The notes beneath the pieces are model-generated. The model was not told the DNA's origin. It did no database searches and saw nothing but the letters and a program-made list of their open reading frames with translations. DNA of 50,926 nt from NCBI GenBank assembly GCA_030123805.1, contig JASJXV010000007.1:1-50926 (forward strand), given 5' to 3'. Positions 14,915 through 26,476 of this stretch are shown one piece after another (the first letter of the stretch is position 1; the number at the start of each line of letters is the position of its first letter). This stretch comes from Gammaproteobacteria bacterium (lineage in GTDB: Bacteria; Pseudomonadota; Gammaproteobacteria; Pseudomonadales; Azotimanducaceae). The translations under genes were made by a program, and so were the position numbers.

Positions 14915-17900
14915 TCAGTAATCCAGCACCACGTACTCGGCGCCATAATGGTCCTGCAACTTCTCGATTAAATCATCGTGCGGTCTGACGCGCCATGCAT
15001 CCCCTAACATCAACCTGACACTGGCATCCACACAGCTATAGTCAATTGATACAGGACATCCCTCAGTGCCTCTATAGGGTTCCAAAAGACGGGCAAGTTT
15101 GGCCGTAAAATCAGTCTCGAGCTTGCAACTGTGCAAAGTTACCCGTAACCGTTTTGCAAATTTTTCCCTGGCCTGAACCAGATTCCACACATCCGTGGCA
15201 CGCATACGCATGCCTCCGGAAAAGTCGTCGACACTGACACTCCCCCTGATTACAAGGATCGTATCTTTCTGCAGTTTGTCTCTGTTCTCTTCAAATACAC
15301 TGCCTGTTACGGACAATTCAATTCGGCCGCTCTTATCATCCAGCGTTACAAACGCGATTGTGTCACCACGCTTGCTCTTCATGGTACGCAAACCAATCAC
15401 CAGCCCTGCGATCGTAAGCGCGTCCCTTGACGGCTTCAGGTCTTTAATTTTATATCGCGCCAGATGCTTTAGTTCTTTCTGATAGATCTCGATAGGATGA
15501 CCTGTTAGATACAATCCCAGAGTTTCTTTTTCTCTTCGCAGCCTGTCCTTGAGGCTCCAGCTTCGCAATACAGCGGTGTGGTTATAATTGTCACGATTAT
15601 TTTTAAAGCTTACATCGCCAAACAGATCGACATGACCACTGCTCTGATTCCTGGCTTTTTGCTCAGCCATTTTAATTGCATCTTCCTGATTCACAGCCAA
15701 CAGAGCGCGTTTCCAATTGAGTGCTTGCTGGTAAACATGATCCTGCTTCGATGCTGCCAGGGTATCCGAGTATTGCTCTTTGGCGAACTCTTTATTGAGA
15801 ACAGTATCCGGTACCAGGTAGTCCACTGCGCCACTACCAATTAGTGCATCCAACACCCGTTTATTGAGTTTCCTCGGCTCAACCCTTTCACATAAGTCAA
15901 ACAAGTCCGTGAACAGATCCCCCGTGGATCTGGCTTGTACAATACTCTCGATGGGCCCTTCTCCTAATCCTTTTATCGCACCCAACCCATAGATTATTTT
16001 GCCTTTACCATCCGCAACAAACCGGAACTGCCCGCGATTGATATCAGGTGGCACAATCTCCAATCCCATCTGCCGACACTCTTCAATGTTCGTGACCACC
16101 TTCTCCGTCGCCTGCATATCCGCTGACAATACGGCTGCCATGAAATCATCTGGATAATGAACCTTTAGCCAGGCTGTCTGATAAGCTATAAGTGCATATG
16201 CCACGGAATGAGATTTGTTGAAGCCGTATCCCGCAAACTTTTCCATCAAGTCAAAAATGTGGCTGGCCTGCGCTTGTGGAATGCCTTTTTTAGTTGTGCC
16301 CTTTAGAAATGTCTCTCTTTGCTGTGCCATTTCCTCAACGTTTTTTGTGCCCATTGCCCGACGCAGTATGTCTGCCTGGGCTATCGAGTAATCAGCAAGA
16401 ACCTGAGCAATCTGCATTACCTGTTCCTGATACAGCATTACGCCATAGGTATTTTTTAGTACAGGTTCCAGATCCGGATGAAGATAATCCACCTCTTCAC
16501 GACCATGTTTTCTATTAATGAAGTCATCCGCCATCAGCATTGGACCCGGTCTGAACAATGCTACCAGGGCGACGATATCTTCAAAGGTATCGGGCAGTAA
16601 TTTCTTAATGAGATCTTTCATGCCCCGGGATTCAAGCTGAAACACAGCGGTTGTCTTCGACTGTTTCAGCATGCTGAAAACGGCAGGATCTTCCAGTGAG
16701 ATCCGTTGAATATCGACTCGCTCACCGCCTTCCTGCTCTAGTCGCCGATTTATGCTCTTTATCGCCCAGTCGATTATCGTCAGCGTTCTGAGGCCCAAGA
16801 AGTCAAATTTAACGAGCCCAGCCAGCTCAACGTCATATTTGTCAAACTGGGTCATCAACCCCGTACCCCCTTCGTCACAATAAATGGGCGAGAAATCGGT
16901 CAACCGGGTCGGTGCGATCACTACGCCACCGGCATGCCTACCGACATTTCTGACCAGGCCTTCCAGCTTGAAGGCCATTTCCATGATCTCCTGGACTTCC
17001 TCATTTTGGTCAACAAACTCCTTTAGCAAAGGTTCCTCTGCCAATGCTTTTTTCAGTGTCATACCTGGATCAAAGGGTATCAACTTGGACAACTTGTCTG
17101 CTAACCCATAGGGTTTCCCCTGCACTCGAGCCACATCTCTTACTACAGCCTTGGCAGCCATCGTGCCGAAGGTGATAATCTGAGATACCGCCATGCGGCC
17201 ATATCTTTCAGATACATGTTGAATGACTCGATCACGGCCTTCCATGCAAAAATCCACATCGAAATCAGGCATGGAAACCCGTTCCGGATTAAGGAAGCGT
17301 TCAAACAACAAATCATACTGTAGAGGATCCAGATCTGTTATTTGCAATGCATATGCAACCAGGGAGCCAGACCCTGAACCCCGTCCGGGTCCAACAGGGA
17401 TATTGTTCTGTTTAGCCCACTGAATGAATTCCATCACTATAAGAAAGTAGCCGGGGAAACCCATCTGGTTGATAACGCCCAACTCAAAACCGAGTCGTTC
17501 GTCATAGGGTTTTCTTTTTTCCTGGAAGTCCTCTGCCTCCCGGTCCAGCAGATCGCTTAGCCGTTTCTCCAGACCTTCTCGAGACACTTTTTCAAAAAAT
17601 GCCTCTGTAGTCATGCCTTCAGGAACAGGATATTCGGGCAGGTAGTTATGTCCAAGATCAATGGTGACGCTACATCGACGTGCAATCTGCACACTATTCT
17701 CAATGGCTTCCGGAATGTCAGAAAACAGTTCGCACATCTCCTCGGTGGATTTGAGGTATTGCTGGTCACTGAATCTCCTCTCCCTCCGAGGATCATCAAG
17801 GGTTCGGCCATCGTGGATACAAACTCTTACCTCATGGGCTTCATACTCATCCTGAGTGAGAAAACGAACGTCGTTAGTCGCTACCACAGGGCAAGATTGT

Positions 17901-18475
17901 CTCTGTGCCAATGCCACTGCCAGATGGACATACTTATCTTCATCCGCACGACTGGTACGATGTAATTCCAGATAAAATCTATCCGGAAACATACTCATCC
18001 ATCGGGTCAGTCTTTCCTCTGCGACAGCGATCCGGCCACTGACCAGCGCACGCCCGATATCGCCAGCCTTCGCTGCCGATAGTGCAATTAGCCCTTCAGC
18101 TTTCTCCTTAATCCATTCATGATCGACCAGAGCACGACCGAGTCGCTGTCCTTCCAAATAACCACGAGAGAGCAACTCGGATATATGCCTGTAGCCGACA
18201 TCGTTCTGTGCAAGCAGAACAATTAATGATGGATCATCTTCAGTATTCTCAGGTGCCACCCAAAAATCACTAGCGACTATTGGCTTAATCCCGTGCTGCA
18301 TCGCAGCGGTGTAAAACTTGAGCAAGCCGAACAAATTTGCTTGATCACTTATTGCAACAGCAGGCATGCCTTTCGACACAACATCAGAGATCAGCGGTTT
18401 AATTCTGACTGTGCCGTCCACCATGGAATACTCAGAGTGAATACGCAGATGAACGAATTGTTGATCCATTGCCAT
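14915..18475 (-). CDS. dnaE: DNA polymerase III subunit alpha
   Basis: DnaE is the catalytic subunit of the replicative polymerase. It has an N-terminal PHP domain (FVHLRIHSEYSMVDG), the polymerase core with the catalytic PDFDVDFCMEGRDRVI motif, the GPGRGSGSGSLVAYAL segment, a helix-hairpin-helix region and the OB-fold (IAGLVIGLRTMKSKRGDTIAFVTLDD). The frame is open upstream to 18610, but family alignment places the start at ATG 18475 or 18469, giving about 1186 residues. No good Shine-Dalgarno precedes either. A strong hairpin lies 53 bases upstream. Confidence 0.97.
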   Translation of the reverse strand: MAMDQQFVHLRIHSEYSMVDGTVRIKPLISDVVSKGMPAVAISDQANLFGLLKFYTAAMQHGIKPIVASDFWVAPENTEDDPSLIVLLAQNDVGYRHISELLSRGYLEGQRLGRALVDHEWIKEKAEGLIALSAAKAGDIGRALVSGRIAVAEERLTRWMSMFPDRFYLELHRTSRADEDKYVHLAVALAQRQSCPVVATNDVRFLTQDEYEAHEVRVCIHDGRTLDDPRRERRFSDQQYLKSTEEMCELFSDIPEAIENSVQIARRCSVTIDLGHNYLPEYPVPEGMTTEAFFEKVSREGLEKRLSDLLDREAEDFQEKRKPYDERLGFELGVINQMGFPGYFLIVMEFIQWAKQNNIPVGPGRGSGSGSLVAYALQITDLDPLQYDLLFERFLNPERVSMPDFDVDFCMEGRDRVIQHVSERYGRMAVSQIITFGTMAAKAVVRDVARVQGKPYGLADKLSKLIPFDPGMTLKKALAEEPLLKEFVDQNEEVQEIMEMAFKLEGLVRNVGRHAGGVVIAPTRLTDFSPIYCDEGGTGLMTQFDKYDVELAGLVKFDFLGLRTLTIIDWAIKSINRRLEQEGGERVDIQRISLEDPAVFSMLKQSKTTAVFQLESRGMKDLIKKLLPDTFEDIVALVALFRPGPMLMADDFINRKHGREEVDYLHPDLEPVLKNTYGVMLYQEQVMQIAQVLADYSIAQADILRRAMGTKNVEEMAQQRETFLKGTTKKGIPQAQASHIFDLMEKFAGYGFNKSHSVAYALIAYQTAWLKVHYPDDFMAAVLSADMQATEKVVTNIEECRQMGLEIVPPDINRGQFRFVADGKGKIIYGLGAIKGLGEGPIESIVQARSTGDLFTDLFDLCERVEPRKLNKRVLDALIGSGAVDYLVPDTVLNKEFAKEQYSDTLAASKQDHVYQQALNWKRALLAVNQEDAIKMAEQKARNQSSGHVDLFGDVSFKNNRDNYNHTAVLRSWSLKDRLRREKETLGLYLTGHPIEIYQKELKHLARYKIKDLKPSRDALTIAGLVIGLRTMKSKRGDTIAFVTLDDKSGRIELSVTGSVFEENRDKLQKDTILVIRGSVSVDDFSGGMRMRATDVWNLVQAREKFAKRLRVTLHSCKLETDFTAKLARLLEPYRGTEGCPVSIDYSCVDASVRLMLGDAWRVRPHDDLIEKLQDHYGAEYVVLDY

Positions 18476-18527
18476 TAAGATTAGGGAGGATTTGGTAATT
18501 GAAAGATGTTTAGGCTTCCAGGACGAT

Positions 18528-18559
18528 ACCAGGAGGCTGTCCGAGAACAGACTCCTGGT
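18528..18559. repeat. Long hairpin between rnhB and dnaE
   Basis: ACCAGGAG (18528-18535) pairs with CTCCTGGT (18552-18559). After one mismatch, CTGT pairs with ACAG around a 6-base loop. The stem is in the 176-base rnhB-dnaE space, about 50 bases ahead of the dnaE start. Neither strand has a T-run directly behind it, so it is more likely an mRNA structure or repeat than a terminator. Confidence 0.65.
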
Positions 18560-18651
18560 CAAATTTACGTTCAGTGAATTAAACGAGGATCGAGTTACGA
18601 TAGCAAGCACTTACGGACTTCAAAATTGTCCGACACGTAAAATGTCGCGGA

Positions 18652-19227
18652 TCACGAGACCAATCTATCCCGGACAGGCGCAAATGATTTTCGGTGAATC
18701 TCACAGGGTCCCAGTTCATCTAATGCCTGCAGATGCATCCTGGTCGGGTAGCCCTTATGTCTTGCCAGGCCGTAGCCTGGATACTGTTGATCAAGTTGTT
18801 TCATCTCTCTGTCACGAGACACCTTGGCTATAATCGAAGCCGCCATAATGACGTCCAGCTTGTCATCGCCTTTGACAAGCCAGTCTGACTCACAGCCAAA
18901 ATCCGGGGTTCGATTACCATCCACCATTACGTAATCGGGTTTCACGGGTAGATTATCCACTGCCCTGACCATGGCCAACAAACTGGCTTGCAGTATATTA
19001 ATCTCATCAATCTCATTTACTTCCGCTCTGCCCAGAGCCCAGCAAAGCGCCTTGCATTTAATTTCTGCATCCAGTTCCTCTCTACGTCGAGCAGAGAGTT
19101 TCTTGGAATCCCGAAGACCGTCAACAGACACAAATGGATCGAGTATTACCGCGGCAGCGACTACCGCTCCGGCTAACGGACCACGGCCGACCTCATCTAC
19201 TCCGGCAAAATACTCTCGTGCATACAT
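18652..19227 (-). CDS. rnhB: Ribonuclease HII
   Basis: RNase HII cuts at ribonucleotides in DNA and starts ribonucleotide excision repair. The 191-residue protein has the catalytic [21 protein letters not shown] motif (Asp11, Glu12), the [13 protein letters not shown] segment, the Asp in [11 protein letters not shown] and the Asp in [20 protein letters not shown] precedes the ATG at good spacing. It follows lpxB by 13 bases. The lpxB-rnhB-dnaE order is the standard one. Confidence 0.98.
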
Positions 19228-19240
19228 AAAATAATTCCTT

Positions 19241-20377
19241 CTAAACCATCGTCAGCACTGCCTCTGCCGCCCTGGCTGCAGAATCCTGGCGTAATCGCAG
19301 ATGAATCTCTCGAAAAGCTGCCAACAATTCCGTCTGTTGCGTTGCCTGCAATCTCTCTAACAACGCGTTCGATAATCTCTCTGGTGTGGCCTGATCCTGA
19401 ATAAATTCAGGCACCAGTTCCTTATCTGCAAGTATGTTGGGCAAAGCAAAATACCTGTTCCGGGTCATTCTCGATACGATTGCATAGGTCAATTTGCCCA
19501 ACCGGTATGACATCACCATGGGGCGTTTAAGCAGCAATGCCTCCAGGGTGGCGGTACCGGAATTCACTAAAACCACATCGGCACAAGCCATGGCAGCCTG
19601 AGCGTTGCCTTGCAAAACCCGGATCGGCAGGTGGGGTGCTTGCTGGCGCACTAACGCCTCGATCTGTTGCTGGCGCGAAGGGTTTGCACTCGGAATCACA
19701 AATTTCAACTCAGGAATTTTTTGATAACACAGATCCGCGGCATGAAGAAAATCGGGACCAGATAGTTTTACTTCACTGCCACGGCTGCCGGGTAAGATGG
19801 CTACAATTTTGTCATTGTGTTGATAGCCCAACTGTGCCCTGGCTTTACTCACGTCAGTTTCAAAAGGGATTGCGTCCGCCAGAGGATGGCCTACAAAATT
19901 CGCTTTGATGTTATTTTTTCTATATATATCAATCTCGAATGGATAAAGCGTCAGCATCATATCAACGGCTTTTGCGATTTTTTTTATTCTGCGCTGGCGC
20001 CATGCCCATATTGTTGGACTTACGTAATGAACCGTCGGGATACCGGCTTTATGCAGCGTCTGCTCAAGCAATAAATTGAAAAAATTGAAATCGATTCCGA
20101 TAAATACCGCCGGTGGATCGGCCAGAAAGTGCCTGCGAAGTGTGAGGAAAATTTTGATTAATTCCGGTAAACGTTTAACAGGATCGACGAAGCCATTAAC
20201 CGAAAGACGTTCCATGTCAAACAGAGAATTGAATCCCTCGGTCAGCATGCCCGGCCCACCAATGCCTGAAAACGCGGCGTCCGGACGACGCTGTTTGATT
20301 TCCCTGATCAGTGGTGCAGCCAGATTATCACCGGAAATTTCTCCTGCCACCATACCGATAGTCAGGCAAGCATCCAT
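19241..20377 (-). CDS. lpxB: Lipid-A-disaccharide synthase
   Basis: LpxB, a GT-B fold glycosyltransferase of family 19 at the inner membrane, couples UDP-diacylglucosamine and lipid X into the lipid A disaccharide. The 378-residue protein shows [20 protein letters not shown] at the start, the GIGGPGM segment, [17 protein letters not shown] and the late [20 protein letters not shown] donor-binding region. GAGGA lies about 10 bases before the ATG. It starts only 13 bases behind fabZ; lpxA is missing from its usual place here. Confidence 0.97.
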
Positions 20378-20390
20378 GATAAACGTATCC

Positions 20391-20831
20391 TCAGGTTACT
20401 TTTTGTTCTGCGCAGGTTAGCAGACTCTCACAGACACACTGACCGTCGACCAGTGCTCGTCCGACCGCTTTCATCCAATGGTTTCTGAGTCTTGTGATTT
20501 CCACTTCCAGAATAAGCTGATCACCCGGAACCACAGAGCGTTTGAATTTTGTTTTGTCCGTACCGGCCAGAAAATAAACATAGCCATCGCTCAAGGTTCT
20601 ATTGCGACTCTTGAACGCCAGAATTCCGGCCGCCTGTGCCATCGCTTCAACTATCAGCACCCCGGGGAAAACCGGGGAAGCCGGAAAATGACCGTTAAAT
20701 ATCTGCTCATTGTAGGTTACATTTTTAAGTGCAATGATGGATTTGTCTGCTTTTAACTCCAAAACCCTGTCAATCATCAGAAAAGGGTATCGATGCGGCA
20801 AATACTTCTGAATTTCTGTTACATCCATCAT
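20391..20831 (-). CDS. fabZ: 3-hydroxyacyl-[ACP] dehydratase FabZ
   Basis: FabZ dehydrates 3-hydroxyacyl-ACP in fatty acid synthesis and competes with LpxA/LpxD for hydroxyacyl-ACP. The 146-residue hot-dog protein has LPHRYPFLMIDRV, the catalytic His48 in NGHFPASPVFPGVLIVEAMAQ and Glu62 in the same block. Its ATG overlaps the lpxD stop by 4 bases (ATGA). Confidence 0.98.
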   Translation of the reverse strand: MMDVTEIQKYLPHRYPFLMIDRVLELKADKSIIALKNVTYNEQIFNGHFPASPVFPGVLIVEAMAQAAGILAFKSRNRTLSDGYVYFLAGTDKTKFKRSVVPGDQLILEVEITRLRNHWMKAVGRALVDGQCVCESLLTCAEQKVT

Positions 20832-21886
20832 TTTTTTTGCTTTCCGTGATCCAGTTTGCTTATTCTGCCTTCAAGATTTCGTAATTGCTTAATAATCCCA
20901 TCCAGTTTTCGAAACCCGACAATACTCCTCTTCCACAGACCGCTGGGTAACAATCCGGTACCTGACGAATATCTGCCACTCTTCAAAATAGATTGGCTTA
21001 CCAGGGTCATGGCGGTTATCTCTACACGATCTGTTACTTCCAGATTATTGATAATACCCACGGCGCCGCCGATGAGACAATAGGATCCGATTCGAACACT
21101 ACCGGCAATTGCGCTACATCCCGATATTACCGTGTGATCGCCAATGATAGTCCCATGCCCAACTTGAACCTGGTTATCCAATTTTACCCCGTTACCGATA
21201 ACGGTATCATTCAATGCACCACGGTCAATGGTGGTACCCGCCCCTATTTCAACATCAGAGCCGATACTGACACCATAAACCTGGTGAATTTTCTGCATCC
21301 GTCCGGAGGATCGGTCAAGGGTAAAACCAAAACCATCCGCACCAATTACAACACCACTGTGAATAATCGTGTCGTCACCCAGAGCCACATCATGGTACAG
21401 CGTCACGTTTGGCCAAAGTCTGGTATTTTTACCCACTCGACAACGGGCGCCAACCACGCATCCCGCACCTATGATCGCACCTGACTCAATTATCGCCTGC
21501 TCATCAACCACGGCATGGGGACCGATGTAAACATTTTCCCCGACAAGCGCGGTTGAGCTGATTTCTGCACTTTTGTTAATCTCCGGCTCAGGCATGGGGG
21601 CAGGATCGAACAGTTTCGTCAGACGTGCAAAAGCCAGCCGTGGATCATCTGCAATTATGCGCTCTGCGGGGCAGTTCTGGGCATCCTGCCTGCTGAGAAC
21701 AACTGCTGATGCTTTGGTGTTTAAAAGGTGTTTACGATAGGAAGGGTCGAACAGGAAACTCAGTTGCCCGGCCTGAGCTTCCTGCAAGTTTGCTATTCCC
21801 GATATTTCGACAGCGGGATCACCAGTACACTCGAGTTCCAGATATGCCGCAATTTCCCCCAGGGTATAACCGGTGTCAGCGGTCAT
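20828..21886 (-). CDS. lpxD: UDP-3-O-(3-hydroxyacyl)glucosamine N-acyltransferase
   Basis: LpxD adds the second, N-linked hydroxyacyl chain in lipid A synthesis. The 352-residue protein has the N-terminal uridine-binding domain (about 1-100), a left-handed beta-helix of hexapeptide repeats (about 105-300) with the catalytic His at about 244 in VQVGHGTIIGDHTVISG, and a C-terminal helix rich in basic residues. It lies 18 bases behind skp and overlaps fabZ. Confidence 0.98.
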   Translation of the reverse strand: MTADTGYTLGEIAAYLELECTGDPAVEISGIANLQEAQAGQLSFLFDPSYRKHLLNTKASAVVLSRQDAQNCPAERIIADDPRLAFARLTKLFDPAPMPEPEINKSAEISSTALVGENVYIGPHAVVDEQAIIESGAIIGAGCVVGARCRVGKNTRLWPNVTLYHDVALGDDTIIHSGVVIGADGFGFTLDRSSGRMQKIHQVYGVSIGSDVEIGAGTTIDRGALNDTVIGNGVKLDNQVQVGHGTIIGDHTVISGCSAIAGSVRIGSYCLIGGAVGIINNLEVTDRVEITAMTLVSQSILKSGRYSSGTGLLPSGLWKRSIVGFRKLDGIIKQLRNLEGRISKLDHGKQKK

Positions 21887-21904: not shown

Positions 21905-22435
21905 CTATTGTGCTTTGGGTTTGTCCATTAAATTGAGTTTTTCCGTGACCTTACGGGTTATATCATAGAGATCCGCTACATACAGGGCAGCTTGTCGCGG
22001 CAGGATCAAATCAAAATCATCACTCATTACTAACTCTTCGATCGCTTTCTGCACTTTCTGGTCTATTCCGGCAAACAATTCCTGTTGTCGATCATCGATC
22101 TGTCTCTGTAGTTTTTTGCGCAGGTAGAGGAAATCGCTGTTTTTATCTTCAATTTTCAGTTGTAGCTTCCTTTTTTCAGAGTCACTCATCACCTCGCCAT
22201 CTTTCTGCAGGCGTTCCAGCAATGCGGCAGCATCCGATTGCAAGGTACGAATCTCATCTTCCTCGCCCTTGAACTCATTCTGAATTTGCAGCATGTAAGT
22301 CTTGGCCTGCTCCGAGCGCAAAATAGCTTTCTGGACATCCACTACTGCAATCTTGACTTCCGCCCATGCTGTCGTGGCCACTAAACCAGCTACGGCCAAT
22401 GCCAGAATGAGTAGAATCCGGTGTATCTTTTGCAC
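21905..22435 (-). CDS. skp: Periplasmic chaperone Skp (OmpH)
   Basis: Skp is a trimeric periplasmic chaperone that carries unfolded outer-membrane proteins to BamA. The frame is open to 22465, but a GTG at 22435 has AAGGAG 7 bases upstream and gives a clean signal peptide (MQKIHRILLILALAVAG...TAWA) cut before EVKIAVVDVQ. The mature part is charged and helical (tentacle region about 50-110), as in the family. It lies between bamA and lpxD as is standard. Confidence 0.93.
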   Translation of the reverse strand: MQKIHRILLILALAVAGLVATTAWAEVKIAVVDVQKAILRSEQAKTYMLQIQNEFKGEEDEIRTLQSDAAALLERLQKDGEVMSDSEKRKLQLKIEDKNSDFLYLRKKLQRQIDDRQQELFAGIDQKVQKAIEELVMSDDFDLILPRQAALYVADLYDITRKVTEKLNLMDKPKAQ

Positions 22436-22465
22436 AATAAATCTCCTTGGCATGATGATAGGCAA

Positions 22466-22676: not shown

Positions 22677-25013
22677 TCAGAATGTTCGACCCAATTCGAA
22701 CTGAAATGTTTCCGTGTCATCGCCTGCCTTGTCGTTTATAGGTATAGCCAGGCTAAACGTAATTGGCGCAAATCCGGTTATCCAGGTTACAGAGAGCCCG
22801 GCGGCGTACCTCAAATCACCGAAATCCAGATCCTCACATATGACACTAAAACTTTGACAGTCAGAATTATAGACGTTACCCATGTCGATGAAGAATGCTG
22901 ATTTCATAGATCGCTGATCTTCAACAAATGGCAGCGGGAATATAATTTCAGCACTGGCCTCAACCAGTACATTGCCACCAATCGGATCAATTGCTCCGAA
23001 TGGATCGTTCAACGAAGGGGTACTCTGAGGACCCAGGGAATTTCTTTCAAAACCTCTCACAGAACCTAAACCACCTGCGAAGAAATTCTTGTAGAAGGGA
23101 AATGTTTTGGTATTCCCGTATGTACCACCGTAACCGAGATCAGTTTTCAGCCTCAACGTAAAGAGTTTTGTCAACGGGAAGAAAATCTGACCAGTGTAAT
23201 TTATCCTGTAAAACTCCAGTGTACTGCCTGGAACGGAGAACTCCAGTGACACACTCTGTGATCGACCTCCGGTGGGCAGCAGCCCTCTGTTCAGTGCTGA
23301 CATCGCATAACTCGCAGTGAATGAGAACAGATCGAATGCATTGCCCTCTGTTGCTAAAAAGTGGGATATTTCCTGAGCAGGAAAAACACCTTCAGTTATA
23401 TCTGTATTCTCGTACCCAAAGCTGAAATTAAGACGCGACACTTCACTCAGTGGATAGCCGAAATTAACTGAACCACCAAATGAATTAGTAGAAAATCTGG
23501 CTATGTTTTGTTCCTTAAAATCACTTTTCCTGAAGAATATGGAATAACCTCTACTCACACCATCCACCGTGTAGTACGGATCAAAGAACGAAAAACTGTA
23601 TGCTGTCTGGAAATCACTTCTGCTGACACCCAGATTAATTTTATTACCCGTACCAAATACATTCGACTCCGAATAGTTGAGTCCAATAATCAGTCCGATA
23701 CCCTGGGAATATCCAAATGTTGCCGATATCGAACCGGATGGCTGTTCTTCTACCGTAAACTCAATATCAATCTGATCGCTACTCCCTGCGACGGATGGGG
23801 TTTCAACATTGACTTCCCGGAAGAATCCCAACCTTTCCAGACGTACCTTGGAAGCTTCGATTGCCGCCGTTGAGGCCCATCCACCCTCCATCTGACGCAT
23901 CTCCCTGCGTAATACGGAATCTTCAGTTATCGTATTGCCCCTGAAATTGATGCGGCGCACGTAAGCCCTGCTGCCTGCATCAACGAAAAACTTAACGGTT
24001 ACAGTGTGGTCTTCGTCATGAATAATCGGTTGGCCAGTAGCGCTGGAAAATGTATAGCCCGAATTACCCAGTGCGCGCTCTATCCTTTCTTCCGAAAACG
24101 TCATTAACTCACGCGAGAAGGTTTGGCCTGGCGCTGTGAGCAGCAGTGCGCGAATAGACTGTTCCGGCACATCGTGCAACTCACCTGCGATGTCTACATC
24201 CCTGATCGAATACTTGTCGCCTTCTGTGACATTAATCGTAATATAAACATCTTCCTTGCTGGGGGAAATCGAGACCTGAGTTGATTCAATGGCGAAATTT
24301 ATATAGCCACGGTCCAAATACCAGGATTCCAGCTTCTCAATATCACCGGACAATTTCTCCCTGGAGTACTTGTCATCTTTTGTATAGAACGACAGCAGGC
24401 TGGGTAGCTTGAGCTCGAGTAATTCCTTAAGCTCCTCATCTTTAAATACGGTATTTCCGACGATATTAATATGTTGAATTCCTGCCACCTCACCTTCCGT
24501 CACATCAATCTTCAGAGATACCCTGTTTCTGGGCAGATCAATTACTTCAGTCTCTATATTTGCACCGTAACGACCCTGCGAAACGTACTGGCGCTCCAGA
24601 TCCAGTTGAATATGATCCAGTGTTACCTGCTTAAAAATCTGCCCTTCCGCCAGGCCCGATCCTTCCAGACCTCGCAACAATGCTTCGGTTTCAATGGCCT
24701 TGTTACCTTCAATTTCAATGCTGTCAATGGAGGGTCGCTCGCTCACGATAATGACGAGAACGTTACCATCTCTGCCAACACTGACATCTTTAAAGAAACC
24801 TGTCTTAAAAATTTCGCGAATGATCTGGCGGATTTGAATATCAGTGACATCATCACCCACGTTGACGTGTACAGAGTTGAACACTGAACCGGCAGAAACT
24901 CGCTGCAATCCCTCAACACGAATATCAGACACGAGAAAGGCTAACGCCCAATCGGTAGCCGACAGCAAAAAGAGAAACAACAATAAGGAGAAAATTGACT
25001 GCTTCTTTACCAT
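22677..25013 (-). CDS. bamA: Outer membrane protein assembly factor BamA
   Basis: BamA is the core of the complex that folds beta-barrel proteins into the outer membrane. The 778-residue protein has a signal peptide (about 1-25, ending WALA), five POTRA domains (about 25-420, starting FLVSDIRVEGLQRVSAG) and a C-terminal barrel. The barrel contains the loop-6 motif VRGFERNSLGPQ and ends in FELGRTF with the terminal aromatic residue needed for its own insertion. It follows rseP and precedes skp. Confidence 0.98.
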   Translation of the reverse strand: MVKKQSIFSLLLFLFLLSATDWALAFLVSDIRVEGLQRVSAGSVFNSVHVNVGDDVTDIQIRQIIREIFKTGFFKDVSVGRDGNVLVIIVSERPSIDSIEIEGNKAIETEALLRGLEGSGLAEGQIFKQVTLDHIQLDLERQYVSQGRYGANIETEVIDLPRNRVSLKIDVTEGEVAGIQHINIVGNTVFKDEELKELLELKLPSLLSFYTKDDKYSREKLSGDIEKLESWYLDRGYINFAIESTQVSISPSKEDVYITINVTEGDKYSIRDVDIAGELHDVPEQSIRALLLTAPGQTFSRELMTFSEERIERALGNSGYTFSSATGQPIIHDEDHTVTVKFFVDAGSRAYVRRINFRGNTITEDSVLRREMRQMEGGWASTAAIEASKVRLERLGFFREVNVETPSVAGSSDQIDIEFTVEEQPSGSISATFGYSQGIGLIIGLNYSESNVFGTGNKINLGVSRSDFQTAYSFSFFDPYYTVDGVSRGYSIFFRKSDFKEQNIARFSTNSFGGSVNFGYPLSEVSRLNFSFGYENTDITEGVFPAQEISHFLATEGNAFDLFSFTASYAMSALNRGLLPTGGRSQSVSLEFSVPGSTLEFYRINYTGQIFFPLTKLFTLRLKTDLGYGGTYGNTKTFPFYKNFFAGGLGSVRGFERNSLGPQSTPSLNDPFGAIDPIGGNVLVEASAEIIFPLPFVEDQRSMKSAFFIDMGNVYNSDCQSFSVICEDLDFGDLRYAAGLSVTWITGFAPITFSLAIPINDKAGDDTETFQFELGRTF

Positions 25014-25066: not shown

Positions 25067-26476
25067 CTAAAAACGAACCAGATCATTATAAAAGGCCAGC
25101 AACATGATACTGACGATGATGAATATACCCAGTTGCATACCCAATGCCTGAATTCGTTCAGAAACCGGGTGACCTCTAATTAATTCAACAAGGTAGTAAA
25201 GAAGATGACCACCATCCAATACAGGAATGGGGAGCAGATTCAATACTCCAAGGCTGATGCTGAGAATTGCTATGAAACCGATATAAGATTCAAGCCCGGA
25301 TTTGGCAGAAGCACTGGCAACTTTGGCTATTGTAATTGGACCACTCAGATTACTGGTTGAGATAGCACCGAGAAGCATCTTTCTTATGGAATCCAGCGTG
25401 AACAGACTCATATCCCAGGTTTTACCCAGAGCAGGGATCCACGCAGTAAAAATAGAGTACTGAACAACACGCTGCATCTCCTCAGGAATCTCAAGGAACT
25501 GGGGTGCAGCACCTATGTATCCTATCTCTGCACCGTCCCGAACGATCCTTTCCGGTAACAAGCTTACGAAGGTTCGTGTGCCTTCTCTGAGCACTTCCAA
25601 GTGCAACTCACGGTTTGCACTAGCCTTGATTATGTCGACCCACTGATTCCAATTCTCGATCCTGGTAGAATCTGAAGTCAGAATTTGATCTCCTACCTGC
25701 AAGCCTGCCTCCAATGCTCTGCCACCTTCGATCAGACGTCCGATCACGGCCGGTACCGCAGGAGAATCCAACATCAGACCCAACGTCATTGTTGGATAGG
25801 GTGTTTCGGCATCTGCCAGCCAGGTTTCGACGGGAATTGACAGGTTGCGATGTTCGCCGAATGGCACCTTCACCTTAAAATTAATTCGTCCGGTATCGCC
25901 CATACGCCTAAAGAGTTGCAGGTTAACTTCAGACCAGATTGCAGTGTCCTTCCCATCCACCTGGACAATTTCCTGTCCCTTCCCGAACCCTGCAATTCCG
26001 GCTTGAGAATTTGCGTCAATCTCACCCAACAATGGCACGATCCCTGTAACACCTAGCGTAAACAATATCCAATAGGCAGCTATGGCTAGCAGGAAATTAG
26101 CCAACGGTCCCGCCAGAACAATGGCAATTCGTCTACTCACCGGTTTCCGATTGAAAGCCAGATGAAGTTCGTCATCAGCGACAAATGCCTCGCGTTCATC
26201 CAGCATTTTGACGTAACCACCCAGGGGAATTGCGGCAATTACGAATTCCGTGCCAATTAATTCATTGTTACGGGTCTTGATTTCCTGATCTTCAGGTATA
26301 GCAGGCACGCGAGCCGGTTTGCCATGCCACGTGAATAGCGGCTTGCCAAAACCTATAGAAAATCGCAGCACTTTGACACCACAACGACGTGCAACCCAGT
26401 AGTGACCGTACTCATGAATCGTCACCAGGATCGATATGGTCACTATCAATGCGACTATGCTTTCAATTGCTTCCAT
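25067..26476 (-). CDS. rseP: Site-2 protease RseP
   Basis: RseP is an inner-membrane zinc protease that cuts the anti-sigma factor RseA, and signal-peptide remnants, within the membrane. The 469-residue protein has the active site HEYGH at 21-25, two central PDZ domains (about 125-390) and the C-terminal NLLPIPVLDGGHLLYYLVELI motif containing the third zinc ligand Asp. It sits beside bamA, whose assembly failures it helps to signal. Confidence 0.98.
   Translation of the reverse strand: MEAIESIVALIVTISILVTIHEYGHYWVARRCGVKVLRFSIGFGKPLFTWHGKPARVPAIPEDQEIKTRNNELIGTEFVIAAIPLGGYVKMLDEREAFVADDELHLAFNRKPVSRRIAIVLAGPLANFLLAIAAYWILFTLGVTGIVPLLGEIDANSQAGIAGFGKGQEIVQVDGKDTAIWSEVNLQLFRRMGDTGRINFKVKVPFGEHRNLSIPVETWLADAETPYPTMTLGLMLDSPAVPAVIGRLIEGGRALEAGLQVGDQILTSDSTRIENWNQWVDIIKASANRELHLEVLREGTRTFVSLLPERIVRDGAEIGYIGAAPQFLEIPEEMQRVVQYSIFTAWIPALGKTWDMSLFTLDSIRKMLLGAISTSNLSGPITIAKVASASAKSGLESYIGFIAILSISLGVLNLLPIPVLDGGHLLYYLVELIRGHPVSERIQALGMQLGIFIIVSIMLLAFYNDLVRF

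Follow-up and report, generated by a model that had tools for sequence, protein, structure and literature searches.

A Lentisphaeria-type lpxA outside the lipid A cluster, and empty lpxA slots, in a family of Pseudomonadales

Introduction

The gene cluster lpxD-fabZ-lpxA-lpxB is considered highly stable, and the enzymes of lipid A synthesis are viewed as drug targets. In the stretch of gammaproteobacterial DNA analysed here (the window, 50,926 nucleotides in all), the slot between fabZ and lpxB in which lpxA would be expected is empty, which raises the questions of what carries out the first step of lipid A synthesis in this bacterium and how the slot came to be vacated. The genes lpxA, lpxC, lpxD and lpxB are often clustered with fabZ, LpxA and LpxD were either both present or both absent in all of the bacteria examined, and Gram-negative bacteria without the lipid A pathway exist (PMC3087551).

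Results

The lpxA slot of the window is empty

An earlier note on this DNA had claimed that lpxA is absent from the cluster and that only 13 bases separate fabZ from lpxB; both the distance and its position proved correct (Table 1). The canonical gene order is not present in the window, the gap being too small for any gene, and the flanking lpxD, fabZ and lpxB are intact, each scoring above its NCBIfam curated cut-off in a profile search. The neighbourhood rseP-bamA-ompH-lpxD-fabZ-(lpxA)-lpxB-rnhB-dnaE recurs across the family; the names of rnhB, dnaE, the ompH/skp-like gene, bamA and rseP in the window are presumed ones and come from no family search. Eleven further genomes with the same type of LpxA (described below) likewise have nothing in the slot, as does one genome, G014, with another type. 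Since 12 of the 13 genus representatives of the same type share the empty slot, a local assembly error, which the earlier note had named as one finding that would undo its claim, is excluded.

Table 1. Positions of the empty slot, its cluster and neighbours in the window, and of the lpxA gene on contig C94
Feature	Position	Strand	Basis
Empty lpxA slot (13 bases between fabZ stop and lpxB start)	20378..20390	(-)	Sequence read
lpxD, 352 aa, UDP-3-O-acyl-glucosamine N-acyltransferase	20828..21886	(-)	TIGR01853, 324.5 bits (cut-off 242.5)
fabZ, 146 aa, 4-base overlap with lpxD	20391..20831	(-)	TIGR01750, 192.2 bits (cut-off 155.15)
lpxB, 378 aa, lipid-A-disaccharide synthase	19241..20377	(-)	TIGR00215, 359.3 bits (cut-off 190.25)
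rnhB, conserved neighbour downstream of slot	18652..19227	(-)	Recurrent neighbourhood; name presumed
dnaE, conserved neighbour downstream of slot	14915..18610	(-)	Recurrent neighbourhood; name presumed
ompH/skp-like, conserved neighbour upstream of slot	21905..22465	(-)	Recurrent neighbourhood; name presumed
bamA, conserved neighbour upstream of slot	22677..25013	(-)	Recurrent neighbourhood; name presumed
rseP, conserved neighbour upstream of slot	25067..26476	(-)	Recurrent neighbourhood; name presumed
lpxA, 270 aa, contig C94 (locus L005)	C94:10143-10955	minus	LpxA profile match

One LpxA is encoded elsewhere in the genome

The genome, which is in 252 contigs and 94.8% complete, was searched with the profile TIGR01852. 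Of four matches only one, at C94:10185-10943, lay above the cut-off (301 bits; cut-off 231), and the expectation that a copy or replacement of lpxA must exist elsewhere was thus borne out. Against the two curated profiles of LpxA, the UDP-GlcNAc O-acyltransferase, the full protein scores 301.6 bits (TIGR01852; cut-off 231.05) and 331.1 bits (NF003657; cut-off 226). In common with the known LpxAs of these families it has the hexapeptide repeats (PF00132, 83.7 bits), the C-terminal Acetyltransf_11 domain (PF13720, 80.8 bits), the catalytic His125 and most of the substrate residues, the alignment giving retention of E. coli His125, D74, K76, H122, H144, H160, Q161, G173, N198 and R204 (in its own numbering, H122, H119, H141 and H157 correspond to E. 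coli His125, H122, H144 and H160, respectively). It differs from them in being a Lentisphaeria-type sequence in a gammaproteobacterium, in the location of its gene outside the cluster, and at E200 and R205, which are replaced by I and A, respectively; I or V at position 200 is also found in the 22 Lentisphaeria rows. We take D74, N198, R204 and R205 to be substrate-site residues, in part from PMC6408518. H125, H122, H144 and H160 are functional residues of E. coli LpxA, and G173M/M169G constitutes an acyl switch (PMC6408518). His125 and H160 are present in all 24 aligned rows of the C94 type, which we refer to as the foreign type.

The C94 lpxA is followed on the same strand by genes for a HAD-type hydrolase and galE, and on its other side ∼500 bases separate it from a divergent fabA-fabB pair. 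Its G+C content is 48.5%, compared with 47.7% for the window and 44.7% for lpxA of Lentisphaera marina, and by this measure it looks like a resident, ameliorated gene; because of this host-like composition it is probably not a recent arrival. LpxC (contig C87) and LptD (contig C99) are encoded in the same genome, and judging from its sequence the C94 LpxA should probably start lipid A synthesis, feeding LpxC, LpxD and LpxB.

The closest relatives outside the family are those of Lentisphaera

A search of a genome collection gave 43 confirmed loci, among which nine from MAGs titled Pseudomonadales, Gammaproteobacteria or K189A were 68–78% identical to the C94 LpxA, followed by two Lentisphaera-type loci at 58–59%, with the remainder at 47% or below. 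The K189A clade, which appears in the title of one of the nine MAGs, is an OMG-group label. Within the class of Lentisphaera marina (98 genomes), identity was 57–59% in five genomes, 52% in one and at most 50% in the others among the matches listed, and the closest LpxAs outside the family are those of Lentisphaera, at 57–59%. Across 321 Gammaproteobacteria, the genome itself set aside, there was no match above 43% among the matches listed, best first, and 14 of the 321 gave no match at the threshold used. The Lentisphaera genes L044 and L045, at 57–59% identity, are sister to the C94 type in the trees described below, but their setting is different: Lentisphaera lpxA comes after two fabZ-like genes, whereas the C94 gene adjoins HAD/galE and the divergent fabA-fabB. 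No relative of fabA, HAD or galE was found in L044–L046, and co-transfer of the neighbours from Lentisphaera is therefore not seen in these loci.

The fetched loci yielded 193 distinct LpxA sequences, from which 125 were picked by group for a quick tree. A careful tree with bootstrap/SH-aLRT support was built from 68 of these rows, and includes none of the seven Lentisphaeria or Verrucomicrobiota rows that were oddly placed in the 125-row tree (four out of 22 from the class Lentisphaeria and three out of 14 from other Verrucomicrobiota). The 24 foreign-type rows form a single clade (SH-aLRT 99 with 125 rows; 100/98 with 68 rows), which is joined by six Lentisphaera-type rows (99; 100/99). Together these lie inside the Lentisphaeria group (92; 94/81), within a wider node that includes Verrucomicrobiota (89; 99/96). 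Support for the node that gives the donor, uniting the foreign type with Lentisphaeria, is moderate. The LpxAs native to the family fall among Pseudomonadales LpxA, eight of them forming one clade (100/99, 68 rows).

The C94 LpxA does not group with proteobacterial LpxA, as a vertically inherited gammaproteobacterial LpxA would. Forcing the foreign type to do so was rejected by the AU test on the careful 68-row set (p 5.5e-7, delta lnL 86.8), and with 125 rows and all beta/gamma rows included on the quick tree the rejection is only just significant (p 0.035, delta lnL 67.5). A further value (p 0.00018, delta lnL 168) was obtained with a constrained group lacking five beta/gammaproteobacterial rows; it overstates the rejection and is not relied on. 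The earlier note had proposed checking for horizontal replacement and, by the phylogeny and the AU tests, C94 lpxA does look like one. As a separate observation, the LpxA on a contig titled Klebsiella pneumoniae MAG (L060) groups with those of two betaproteobacterial MAGs (90), and the title may be wrong.

Distribution of the foreign type and state of the slot

Of 200 genomes of the family, 70 or more encode a C94-type LpxA at 57–100% identity, the genome of the window included; the number is a lower bound since genomes with weak matches only had no row. The carriers fall in 14 of the 37 genera among the matches listed, and the other full-length LpxAs of the family among the matches listed are 34–43% identical to the C94 protein. 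One representative was taken for each of the 37 genera (G000–G036), and the slot could be read in 33. Thirteen of these carry the foreign type. Twelve of the 13 have an empty slot, and that of the remaining one, G030, contains a truncated native relic of 135 aa without the catalytic region, lying between fabZ and lpxB (L188:2455-2862), with a full-length foreign lpxA on another contig. In G014 the slot is empty and only a third type of LpxA is carried. Eighteen representatives of sister genera have the native type, with lpxA in the slot and adjoining fabZ, lpxB or both (G018 and G032 being split or cut by contig ends, and G023 showing only lpxA adjoining lpxB). In G026 a damaged lpxA (L297:2427-3206), whose product lacks the catalytic His, adjoins fabZ in a cluster without lpxD and lpxB, and searches of this genome for LpxC and LptD gave no match. 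The other four representatives (G003, G010, G013 and G035) gave no lpxB match.

In a species tree built from BamA, DnaE, RnhB and RseP, 10 of the 13 foreign-type genomes and G014 form one clade (100). In the nine genera of this clade that were examined (g1, g2, g3, g9, g21, g23, g25, g29 and g34), lpxA lies between HAD and fabA in all nine. The possibility raised against the original observation, that lpxA sits at a different conserved place throughout the family, therefore stands in part: the C94 type is found in 14 of 37 genera, beside fabA in its own clade, but 18 of 33 representatives keep lpxA in the slot. Three foreign-type genomes, G007, G030 and G031, are placed by the species tree within the native clade (G007 is a long branch of unsure place), so that one simple event is not enough for all. 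The fetched lpxA flanks of seven genomes from g8, g31 and g32 gave no fabA or HAD relative, and at E<=1e-40 fabA had no match in any of the 16 genomes of native type that were searched, or in G007, G030, G031, G010 and G013. G121 does have fabA, as do two genomes that belong to other families in the order. LpxC gave two nearly full-length matches each in G036 and G031.

Native LpxAs of the family have an altered set of pocket residues

The catalytic His is kept in all 17 family-native rows (from L264–L298; an alphaproteobacteria-like row from G076 is left out of this count), but D74 is lost in 16, K76 and H160 are lost in all 17, and C163 is replaced by Arg in all 17. Among 13 rows that represent other families in the order, D74 and H160 are each kept in all 13 and K76 in 12. 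Loss of H160 alone is not unique, as it is also lost in the third LpxA type (4/4) and in 6 of 22 Lentisphaeria rows. The family-native LpxAs thus appear to have a rebuilt substrate pocket, and the joint loss of D74, K76 and H160 possibly reflects another acceptor or a changed pocket. With these native and foreign residues, the swap separates a canonical-pocket branch from a rebuilt-pocket branch. The residue aligned to E. coli G173 is G in 10 and A in 7 of the 17 natives, and G in 23 of 24 foreign-type and 4 of 4 third-type rows. A change of acyl length was considered as the reason for the swap and rejected because there is no Met-to-Gly switch at this position, and no strong shift in acyl length is predicted.

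G076 has a second LpxA, encoded in an lpxD-fabZ-lpxA arrangement on a 5-kb contig (G076:C165, L201), which groups with alphaproteobacteria (83); this is possibly a stray contig.

A third type of LpxA

The third type (L189, L190, L191, L202, L327 and L334) occurs in genera g9, g15 and g34, and its four rows in the 125-row tree form one clade (100). In G014 and G104 it likewise lies between HAD and fabA, oriented the other way round. In G121 the copy in this interval is spread over two reading frames, and a further contig carries a second copy. A long run of small, unrelated, one-strand genes surrounds the gene in L190 (G033:C3:2000-21000) and resembles a cassette array. An integron cassette origin for this copy was considered and set aside: a crude scan without positive control detected no attC-like pairs in L190, nor in 20 shuffles, and the repeats found there amounted to one weak two-copy repeat.

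Loss of lipid A genes in some genera

In nine of nine genomes (L318–L326, being G010, G013, G035, G044, G003, G062, G085, G103 and G065, in that order), lpxD, lpxA and lpxB are gone from the cluster and fabZ lies between ompH and rnhB. In G035, bamA and rseP are located elsewhere on that contig, which ends within rnhB; G044 is a member of another family of the order. LpxC had no match in eight of the nine genomes and a partial match in G003, LptD was found in eight of the nine, G003 being the exception, and LpxB was not found genome-wide in the five that were searched (G003, G010, G013, G035 and G044). The closed synteny, with fabZ between ompH and rnhB, is not accounted for by genome incompleteness. 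At least three genera (g11, g14 and g36) have lpxD, lpxA and lpxB deleted from the cluster, no LpxC match, and LptD kept. Some Gammaproteobacteria thus seem to have lost lipid A yet kept the LPS translocon, in which case LptD in g11, g14 and g36 would export something other than lipid A.

Discussion

Xenologous displacement is the loss of a vertically inherited copy and the retention of a horizontally acquired one. The arrangement of lpxA in this family has the pattern of such displacement of housekeeping genes, and we consider it very probable that the native lpxA was displaced by a Lentisphaeria-type gene, which then spread within the family. An ancestor in this Pseudomonadales family would have acquired the Lentisphaeria-type lpxA, which in its own clade would have settled between the HAD-hydrolase/galE pair and fabA-fabB. 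The new LpxA would have taken over the first lipid A step, the transfer from 3-hydroxyacyl-ACP to UDP-GlcNAc, after which the native gene between fabZ and lpxB would have been deleted. Further lineages of the family would then have received the new gene, most plausibly via transfer inside the family. That the new enzyme carries the step alone, that gain came before loss, and the direction of transfer are points that we infer.

A different course of events, which we regard as unlikely, is that the foreign lpxA was already present in the ancestor of the whole family, both copies coexisting until one or the other was lost in different lineages. Foreign-type genomes are indeed spread over the two major clades that the species tree shows, and the base of the foreign clade is without resolution in the 68-row tree. 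However, no genome combines a native slot LpxA with the foreign type among the matches listed, and the foreign LpxA of G030 is nested within those from the other clade (93/84) while the slot keeps its native remnant, which together suggest a later transfer into G030.

The reverse direction, in which the gene arose in the family and passed to Lentisphaera, is quite improbable. The family and Lentisphaera-type rows are sister groups, so that the last step alone carries no direction, but the pair nests in Lentisphaeria and, more widely, with Verrucomicrobiota at the supports given above, and the 321 Gammaproteobacteria contain no other match above 43% among the matches listed. There is very little to be said for relocation and fast evolution of the native lpxA without horizontal transfer. 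The same context beside fabA-fabB in many members is what a moved gene would show, and a proteobacterial placement is rejected only at p 0.035 with 125 rows. Against this, the natives cluster with Pseudomonadales LpxA and the C94 type with Lentisphaera (both 100/99), the joint clade is strongly rejected on the careful set, and the C94 type has D74, K76, H160 and C163, each of which is missing from 16 or all 17 of the native rows; a relocated native gene is thus rejected by both trees and the AU tests. Because of the weaker p value, our confidence in displacement is slightly lowered, and that in relocation and in the reverse direction slightly raised. Contamination by a Lentisphaera contig in an assembly of 252 contigs, combined with a local gap in the window, or an assembly error, is ruled out for practical purposes by recurrence in 70 or more of the 200 genomes of the family, a G+C content equal to that of the host, neighbouring fabA and fabB that are 69–77% identical across members (bar one partial fabB match at 64%), and the empty slot in 12 of 13 foreign-type genomes.

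Displacement of lpxA by a Lentisphaeria-type gene would differ from xenologous displacement elsewhere in that it affects the reaction with which lipid A synthesis begins, crosses phyla and has members in 14 genera. The term 'xenologous' appears in a paper on pantothenate genes that a Rhizobium plasmid encodes (PMC3082293). The words 'horizontal' and 'gene transfer' are absent from the main text of PMC3087551, and none of the best matches from one literature collection reported a lentisphaeral lpxA in Gammaproteobacteria or members of this family devoid of lipid A.

In 14 genera an essential-looking step would thus have been replaced by the gene type of another phylum, the evidence being the empty slots and a single remnant, and lipid A trees should not be taken for species trees. 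These close relatives, whose lpxA is native, foreign, a remnant or absent, form a set in which gain, loss and dispensability could be tested. Taken jointly, the rebuilt native LpxA, the Lentisphaeria-type swap, the third type, and pathway loss with LptD kept might mean that the lipid A entry step of this family is in flux, a reading that we put forward tentatively and with some doubt. If it is true, nature would have provided in this family an experiment on how an outer membrane alters or abandons its lipid A.
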